Positions 25,977-47,879 of a stretch of 64,000 nucleotides of DNA are shown here, one piece after another (the first letter of the stretch is position 1; the number at the start of each line of letters is the position of its first letter). Below the pieces are notes generated by a model. It was given only the letters and a program-made list of their open reading frames with translations. It did no database searches and had not been told where the DNA came from. The DNA is taken from positions 186,001-250,000 of the forward strand of contig QWDQ01000023.1 of assembly GCA_003868215.1 (NCBI GenBank), read 5' to 3'. Both the position numbers and the translations under genes were made by a program. The stretch is from Pseudophaeomoniella oleicola. Taxonomy: Eukaryota; Ascomycota; Eurotiomycetes; Phaeomoniellales; Phaeomoniellaceae.

Positions 25977-26095
25977 ACATACGACCATAGACTGTGGAAT
26001 ACAGGGCTTCCCGTCCGCTCAGCCGTACTTAAGCCACAGGTCGGGCGGTTAGTAGTTGGGTGGGTGACCACCAGCGAATCCCGTGTGTTGTATGT
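25977..26095 (+). rRNA. 5S ribosomal RNA, dispersed copy
   Basis: This 119-nt segment matches fungal 5S rRNA from ACATACGACC to GTTGTATGT. Helix I closes (ACATACGAC with GTTGTATGT, one G-U pair), and the conserved internal promoter and loop segments GTCCGCTCAGCCGTACTTAA and GTTGGGTGGGTGACCACCAG are intact. Compared with the Neurospora-type sequence as I remember it, both arms of helix II differ together (GACTGTGG with CCACAGGTC), and helix V shows a paired change (GCGG with CCGT). So the gene looks functional, not decayed. 5S genes in filamentous ascomycetes are scattered singly through the genome, as here. Confidence 0.95.
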
Positions 26096-26108
26096 TTTTG
26101 TTTTTTTT
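26095..26108 (+). terminator. RNA polymerase III T-run terminator of the 5S gene
   Basis: Two T runs (five T, one G, eight T) start at the last base of the 5S gene, a typical Pol III stop. Confidence 0.85.
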
Positions 26109-46744: not shown

Positions 46745-47257
46745 GGCATCAACATGATCATGGCCAACGATCTCGAGCCGCAAGTTTGCATTCAGTTTCG
46801 CAAAAGAGGTTGAATAGCGACATACAGAAATCGTCCGTTTCGACCTCATCTCACCAAATTCTACCTCCGTAGCTGATCCTGGGCGCTTGCTATTTTAGCC
46901 TGAGGCATAAGCCCGCAAGTCTGACCTGTAGCCCTGCTGCCCTGACTTGCTACGAACGAGAAGATCACAAACGTGGAAAGATGTTCGTCTTATTCATGCA
47001 TTACCTTCTGTACCACCTCGAAATTTCATAGGTAAACAGCCAAAATGCGATTTGATCAAAATGATTTATCATATAAACCGTTCTTTTGATATCTCTTTGC
47101 GTACATGTAGCTAAGCTAATTAGATGGAGCCCACATAAAGAAACAGGAAGAACAACTTTGGCTTCTAAAACGAAGAATTCCTAATTGTATTGTGTGACAA
47201 GAAATTTGGTATATATTATTTATGAGTACATTTTCAGACATCAACCACCACAAACAT
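46745..47257. other. Intergenic between the DUF4185 gene and tRNA-Arg
   Basis: AT-rich from about 47000. No gene is seen apart from the tRNA that follows. Confidence 0.4.
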
Positions 47258-47380
47258 GGCCTAATGGCCCAATGGCAAGGCGCTTGACGTAAGTTCAATG
47301 ATTCACGATCATTGTGTATAATACTAACTACTGTCATAGTACGAATCAAGAGATTCCAGGTTCGACCCCTGGTTAGGTCA
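47258..47380 (+). tRNA. tRNA-Arg(ACG), interrupted in the anticodon loop
   Basis: Two segments, 47258-47288 and 47340-47380, together make a standard 72-nt cloverleaf. The acceptor stem GGCCTAA pairs with TTAGGTC (one G-U pair) with A73. A D-arm GCC/GGC, anticodon stem CTTGA/TCAAG, loop CTACGAA with T33 and anticodon ACG, and T-arm CCAGG/CCTGG with loop TTCGACC complete it. The A-box (TGGCCCAATGG) and B-box (GGTTCGACCCC, 47359-47369) are intact. A T7 run at 47402-47408 follows as Pol III terminator. The anticodon, as inosine after editing, would read CGU, CGC and CGA arginine codons. The 51-nt interruption lies between C32 and T33, not at 37/38, and its ends cannot be slid to another position. 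Whether this copy yields mature tRNA is open. Confidence 0.88.
47289..47339 (+). other. 51-nt GT-AG insert with spliceosomal signals inside the tRNA gene
   Basis: The insert begins GTAAGT, has a perfect TACTAAC branch site at 47322-47328 and ends CATAG, 11 nt after the branch. Length and signals match the pre-mRNA introns of neighbouring genes (44-80 nt). The first base of the insert (G) differs from the first base after it (T), and the last base before it (C) differs from its last base (G), so the boundaries are unique. Confidence 0.8.
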
Positions 47381-47401
47381 CAAATTATGGTTAATCCATT
47401 C

Positions 47402-47408
47402 TTTTTTT
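47402..47408 (+). terminator. Pol III T-run after tRNA-Arg
   Basis: Seven T residues 21 nt after the discriminator base, with a second run of five T shortly after. Confidence 0.65.
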
Positions 47409-47879
47409 GTTCTTTTTCGGTGCGGTGGAGAGACGGTTGTTTAGTAAGCATGGTGAGTGAGGCTTTATCGAATCTTCTTTCTTTCTTTTTTCTCAGAGCA
47501 AAACCCTAATTATTGCCTTACCACGTTACCAATACAGAAGAGCGAAGACTGCCGATCAACCGCCGTTGTATACACAAGGTGGATCGAGAGGAAGGTTCTT
47601 CTCCTTCCCAGCCTTGTTACGCTCGATAGGTAGTAAGCTATTCTTGGATGGATAATCAACAACGACCAGCGGGCCAGTTCCACTACATCGCCGTAGGCAG
47701 GCATCTTAGAACTTGCCATGTACTCCGTACCCTCCATGATCGTCATCGTAAGTGCCTAGGTAAGGTAGGTAGATAGGTACCTTGATAGAACTATATACAA
47801 GCAAAATGGGCTATCTAGTCGCGAGCGAGTGAGAGATTGATTCCCAGGGGTTTAAACCGGTAGGAGAATATCATATATC

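Follow-up and report, generated by a model that had tools for sequence, protein, structure and literature searches.

The stretch of the Pseudophaeomoniella oleicola genome analysed here (64,000 nucleotides of contig QWDQ01000023.1, hereafter the window) contains at 47258-47380 the sole tRNA-Arg(ACG) gene found, which very probably carries a U2-type spliceosomal intron and is one of at least 12 such tRNA genes whose additional intron would be removed by the spliceosome. The observation made in the initial annotation, a tRNA gene interrupted by an mRNA-type intron, is real, well beyond chance and wider than first thought. Judged from the genes compared below, it is likely that spliceosomal introns have spread into the nuclear tRNA set of this fungus (12 of the 53 genes found), that the spliceosome is obligatory for at least seven anticodons, that it acts before the tRNA endonuclease in eight genes, and that a pair of Lys(CUU) genes has caught an intron gain or loss. 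These data suggest that the mRNA-splicing machinery is needed for part of the cell's tRNA set.

The interrupted tRNA-Arg(ACG) gene

The gene and its flanking signals comprise the following features, given in window coordinates.

47210..47217, + strand: TATA-like element 5' of tRNA-Arg(ACG), TATATATT, read from the sequence
47258..47288, + strand: tRNA-Arg(ACG) 5' exon, 31 nt, ending at C32 (Rfam match, blind junction scan)
47289..47339, + strand: spliceosomal-type intron, 51 nt, position 32/33 (sequence, blind scan, signal count)
47289..47294, + strand: 5' splice site GTAAGT (sequence)
47322..47328, + strand: branch site TACTAAC, with branch A at 47327, 12 nt from the intron end (sequence)
47335..47339, + strand: 3' splice site CATAG (sequence)
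47340..47380, + strand: tRNA-Arg(ACG) 3' exon with T33, anticodon ACG, T arm (B box) and discriminator A (Rfam, ARAGORN, blind scan)
47402..47408, + strand: T7 run, Pol III-type terminator (sequence)

The segment 47258-47380 is a full-length match to the Rfam tRNA family (44.3 bits) with a long insertion within the anticodon loop. ARAGORN reports no tRNA in the plain window; when introns are allowed it reports an intron (32,51) in Arg(acg), and once 47289-47339 is taken out it calls a plain Arg(acg). Since GT and AG had guided the first reading of the loci, the choice of boundary was repeated blind, with a score made up of tRNA pairing and invariant bases alone. Among 1859 single removals of 30-120 nt, 47289-47339 is the unique best, and no slide of the exon/intron boundary is possible. 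ARAGORN and the blind scan both confirm the initial claim that excision of this segment leaves a good tRNA-Arg(ACG), and direct reading bears out the description of the insert as 51 nt long with GTAAGT, TACTAAC and CATAG.

Three other candidate explanations of the locus were rejected. The spliced tRNA-Arg(ACG) scores 62, within the range of 49-63 for the 41 other tRNA genes, and this absence of exon decay argues against a tRNA pseudogene with decayed exons. A group I or group II self-splicing intron is disfavoured by the length of only 51 nt and by a search of 46900-47700 at E up to 10, which gave 3 matches with neither family among them, so that a catalytic core is not matched. A structured insert was discarded as its hairpin is no better than chance in comparison with shuffles (z 0.17). 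The fold of the pre-tRNA-Arg(ACG) is unremarkable (z -1.81), and the minimum-energy fold of the mature, unmodified sequence is not the cloverleaf.

The form of mRNA introns in this genome was assessed in the window, where an ORF-bridging scan yielded 12 candidates of 44-128 nt; these are informative for length only, because the scan itself demands splice and branch letters. A single intron, in a sterol reductase gene, was confirmed by alignment with homologues: it is 49 nt long and reads GTACGT..GCTAAC..TAG. The best listed relative of the encoded sterol reductase is a Phaeomoniella chlamydospora protein (Eurotiomycetes, Phaeomoniellales) that shares 81% identity. The ectopic tRNA inserts described below agree in form with this one homologue-confirmed intron, which supports the earlier statement that the Arg insert carries the mRNA-intron signals of the genome. 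The U2-type assignment draws on a boundary that is independent of the signals (in the window gene), on the branch-site distance and on this mRNA-intron form. The window also encodes, 29 kb upstream of the tRNA gene and in the same orientation, an adenosine deaminase (A_deamin, PF02137; 16867-18144), a possible Tad1-type tRNA deaminase.

Ectopic inserts in the nuclear tRNA gene set

The assembly searched comprises 26.1 Mb in 112 contigs. A tRNA family search, in which 63 of 781 candidates were scored, gave 36 nuclear genes, and two B-box patterns, for which 40 places were fetched among the matches listed, added 16 more; together with the window gene these make at least 53 nuclear tRNA genes, a lower bound. 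The 30.9-kb contig C110, which holds 15 of the 51 tRNA matches of the family search, was taken as mitochondrion and left out. Each amino acid save Asp is represented by at least one listed gene, and Asp(GUC) and Thr(CGU) have no gene among the 53 found. A pattern combining the Asp(GUC) anticodon with a B box gave 22 matches, one of them the window gene, and none was accepted as judged from the printed letters; the corresponding Lys(CUU) pattern gave 9 matches, again none accepted from the printed letters, and it required A38, which excludes genes with canonical introns. The nuclear set found is small, mostly with one gene per anticodon. An adjoining tRNA-Ala(AGC) pair was observed at C42:130570-131600 (L128), one member with a canonical 37/38 intron and one without. 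Ten further loci (L091-L095, L097, L104, L117, L118 and L120) were rejected as tRNAs, since by eye they resemble a repeat family instead: they have B-box-like 3' ends and T runs, several share common blocks such as GACCTGCGACGGCT, and they are perhaps a Pol III SINE family.

Forty-one of the 53 genes found are uninterrupted or contain a canonical 37/38 intron alone, whereas at least 12 hold an ectopic insert of 51-88 nt located off 37/38. The interrupted genes are listed below with their loci and insert positions, the tRNA position numbers having been assigned by hand from the folds.

Arg(ACG), window: ectopic insert at 32/33
Phe(GAA), L052: ectopic insert at 16/17
Lys(UUU), L053: ectopic insert at 19/20
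Val(AAC), L055: ectopic insert at 17/18
Ile(AAU), L056: ectopic insert at 20/20a
Lys(CUU), L054: ectopic insert at 64/65
Pro(UGG), L089: ectopic insert at 24/25
Pro(UGG), L090: ectopic insert at 24/25
Gln(CUG), L099: ectopic insert at 23/24
Leu(AAG), L102: ectopic insert at 15/16
Tyr(GUA), L112: ectopic insert at 26/27
Trp(CCA), L114: ectopic insert at 26/27

The ectopic positions span the D arm, the anticodon arm and the T arm, with 0/12 at 37/38. In addition, 39 canonical introns were parsed in the genome, eight of which sit in genes that also bear an ectopic intron. Recognition of the interrupted genes by standard tools is uneven. Among seven of these loci submitted to Rfam, a tRNA match was returned in L052, L053, L089 and L054 and none in L056, L099 and L102. 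ARAGORN run without introns finds 0/12 genes before removal of the insert and 10/12 after it; with introns allowed, it detects 7/12 before removal and all 12 after removal, when the anticodon is right in 10 (Val and Tyr are misread). Gene finders that expect introns at 37/38 alone would miss or misread such genes, and before removal the anticodon called by ARAGORN with introns allowed is right in 1/12, for Arg only.

All 12 ectopic inserts start with GTNNGY, contain YTNAY with its A located 8-22 nt from the end, and finish with YAG. The stricter branch site YTRAY is present in 10/12, the branch of both Pro(UGG) introns being the weaker match CTTAC. All three signals occur together in 13 of 400,000 random stretches of matched lengths drawn from the fetched DNA, and GT..AG ends are found in 0/39 canonical introns as cut at 37/38 by the parser. 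In the blind scan, the fold alone selects the GT/AG boundary in seven of the 12 genes when a 1-nt slide is allowed: this boundary is unique for Arg, Gln and both Pro genes and forms a two-way slide tie for Tyr, Trp and Lys(CUU). The five D-loop boundaries (Phe, Ile(AAU), Leu, Lys(UUU) and Val) are ones that the fold cannot fix, and the GT/AG choice there is ours: the ties among equal removals number 36 for Phe, 17 for Ile(AAU) and 23 for Leu, and another removal outscores the GT/AG one by 3 points for Lys(UUU) and 1 point for Val. Introner-like elements were rejected, as the introns match their own loci only and are without near-identical genomic copies: with the 734 nt of joined introns as query, 12 matches were obtained at E up to 1, and every one fell on its source locus.

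The initial annotation had offered either a recent intron-like insertion or a tRNA matured by the spliceosome or a relaxed tRNA endonuclease. According to the endonuclease reading, the endonuclease and the tRNA ligase remove the inserts, as in Cyanidioschyzon merolae or Crenarchaeota, and the GT-AG ends are incidental. Two genes with the PF01974 endonuclease domain are present in the assembly, as the canonical introns require, and ectopic endonuclease introns are described for a red alga and for archaea (PMC4090602, PMC3978253). However, the central 4-bp helix of a bulge-helix-bulge forms 2/4 pairs for Arg and 23/48 over the 12 junctions, without excess over the 21.9 +- 2.2 obtained with shuffled partners, and the inserts lie at 32/33 in Arg and in no case at 37/38, on which grounds endonuclease introns of this type were rejected. 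A relaxed endonuclease would also leave unexplained the occurrence of GTNNGY..YTNAY..YAG in 12/12 inserts versus GT..AG in 0/39 canonical introns, as the enzyme has no need of splice or branch letters. We regard this part of the original alternative as very unlikely, whereas its spliceosome part has gained from the 11 additional genes, the seven anticodons, the Pro(UGG) pair and U6.

Gene copies, conservation and proposed maturation

The check for other tRNA-Arg(ACG) copies that the first reading had called for found none in the assembly beyond the window locus. The 3' anticodon arm of Arg(ACG), searched with up to 2 mismatches, occurs in 7 places in the assembly, of which the window locus alone is a tRNA, and BLAST with the joined exons likewise returns this locus alone for Arg(ACG). 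Assembly BLAST found no uninterrupted copy of Arg-ACG, Phe, Tyr, Trp, Lys-UUU, Gln-CUG or Pro-UGG (eight genes): the seven joined mature tRNAs gave 15 BLAST pieces, every one on the eight interrupted genes. The genetic code offers no substitute for the Phe, Tyr and Trp tRNAs, or for Arg(ACG) in the reading of CGU/CGC. Several essential tRNAs would accordingly depend on the spliceosome for their production.

The paralogous genes provide two contrasting cases. In the Pro(UGG) pair L089/L090, the mature parts are identical at 72/72 positions and the ectopic introns at 40/51 (Fisher p 3e-5), and the flanks match at 21/80 and 28/80; within the introns, the 5' splice site, the CTTAC branch block and the 3' end are kept. 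The combination of exon identity with intron and flank drift therefore points to an old duplication with exons and splice signals under selection. In the Lys(CUU) pair, L026 and L054 are identical at 86/86 positions, the canonical intron included, save that 53 nt (GTGAGT..GCTAAT..CAG) interrupt the T stem of L054; on this comparison, the pair reads as one fresh intron gain or loss.

Gene copies also bear on the possibility that the interrupted genes are dead through an intron-like insertion and that intact copies have taken over their role. For four of them, Val(AAC), Ile(AAU), Leu(AAG) and Lys(CUU), an uninterrupted sister gene does exist, as would be expected in that case. However, seven anticodons are without any intact copy found, including the sole Phe, Tyr and Trp genes seen; the spliced scores of the 12 interrupted genes (55-64) compare well with those of the 41 others (49-63); and the Pro(UGG) mature parts have stayed identical despite intron drift. 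We therefore consider the death of these genes extremely unlikely.

Transcription signals are shared by interrupted and other tRNA genes. A TATAW element at -60..-20 is present in 10/12 interrupted and 30/41 other genes, compared with 5% of random positions, and T5 within 60 nt in 12/12 and 41/41, compared with 3.4% at random, although the T5 counts are partly built in because 6/12 and 10/41 genes were found via patterns requiring T5. These signals weigh against a model in which a Pol II read-through transcript is spliced as mRNA and then trimmed to the tRNA, so that Pol III and the spliceosome never share an RNA. Such a model has the appeal that spliceosomal introns normally reside in Pol II transcripts, and it sidesteps the missing cap; given that the interrupted genes resemble the other tRNA genes in their TATA elements and T runs, we judge it highly unlikely.

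In the mechanism that we favour, spliceosomal removal from a Pol III transcript, Pol III would transcribe the pre-tRNA from the TATA element and the B box and stop at the T run. The nuclear spliceosome would then assemble on GTAAGT and TACTAAC and excise the ectopic intron via the branch A (47327), the joining of exons would restore the mature anticodon arm, and end trimming would come next. The D-loop introns divide the A box, and therefore the promoter of those genes must lean on the TATA element or the B box. Short exons and a missing cap make such an RNA an unusual substrate for the spliceosome. Because the eukaryotic tRNA endonuclease measures from the tRNA body, in the 8/12 genes with both introns the spliceosome would act first, and the tRNA endonuclease and ligase would then act on the restored body.

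Another Pol III-type RNA of this genome contains an insert as well. Six U6 matches were obtained (47 of 1565 candidates scored), of which one lies over the family cut-off. This one, at C32:203080-203235 (L130; 70.1 bits), is interrupted between GAGAAGAUUAG and CAUGGCCCC by 56 nt reading GTTTGG..GCTAAT..CTAG. The insert sits in the conserved core, after GAUUAG, with a boundary that may slide by up to 3 nt and a 5' splice site that deviates from GTNNGY. From this mRNA-type insert it follows that a Pol III-type RNA is probably spliceosome-dependent here too, that is, U6 of this genome probably requires the spliceosome. As for 5S rRNA as a second host, 0 of the 14 matches listed (120 nt each; 47 of 1233 candidates scored) are interrupted. 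These include a full-length 5S rRNA gene in the window at 25977-26096 on the + strand.

Implications and comparison with known systems

The standard account of tRNA splicing without the spliceosome is restated in a 2026 review (PMC13149111). Against this account, the sequence evidence presented here indicates that the spliceosome would have to act for essential tRNAs. If true, translation capacity would be tied to spliceosome activity, and a Pol III transcript besides U6 would become a routine spliceosome substrate. When leader and trailer are excluded, the mature exon part preceding the intron measures 15 nt in Leu and the one following it 9 nt in Lys-CUU; pieces as short as these could serve as probes of exon recognition. 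The two Lys(CUU) genes, one interrupted and one not, together with the insert in the U6 core, would make reverse splicing as an intron source directly testable.

A literature search, with most subscription journals outside its coverage, turned up no published example of a nuclear tRNA gene with a spliceosomal intron. The nearest systems differ in host or in mode of removal. For instance, in the U6 gene of fission yeast an mRNA-type intron lies close to the catalytic nucleotides, and its origin is thought to be reverse splicing (PMC10484740). The likeness lies in a spliceosomal intron inside a Pol III RNA, U6 of the present genome having an insert too; the difference is that fission yeast U6 is a single snRNA within the spliceosome, whereas the hosts here are tRNAs, with many genes and positions. 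In another case, two reviews (PMC4090602, PMC3978253) place ectopic eukaryotic tRNA introns in nucleomorphs and a red alga, either linked to the endonuclease or with excision unknown. Cyanidioschyzon merolae, the Guillardia theta nucleomorph and Crenarchaeota resemble the present genome in having tRNA introns off 37/38, sometimes beside a canonical one (PMC4090602). However, those introns are tied to bulge-helix-bulge motifs and the endonuclease or, in Guillardia, are 3-24 nt long with unknown excision; here, they are 51-88 nt long, have GT-AG ends together with branch sites, and show no tendency towards a bulge-helix-bulge.

Canonical eukaryotic tRNA introns share the tRNA gene hosts, with 39 parsed here and eight of them beside an ectopic intron; unlike the ectopic ones, they are fixed at 37/38, have no splice-site letters (0/39 GT..AG) and are removed by the endonuclease. 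Ascomycete lichen fungi carry spliceosomal introns in nuclear rRNA genes. These are similar in being mRNA-type introns in an ascomycete non-coding RNA, and dissimilar in that the host RNA is made by Pol I, whereas here it is tRNA. Spliceosomal introns in non-coding RNA genes are the known kind to which the present case belongs, and what appears new, with none reported in the literature searched, is the tRNA as a host class.
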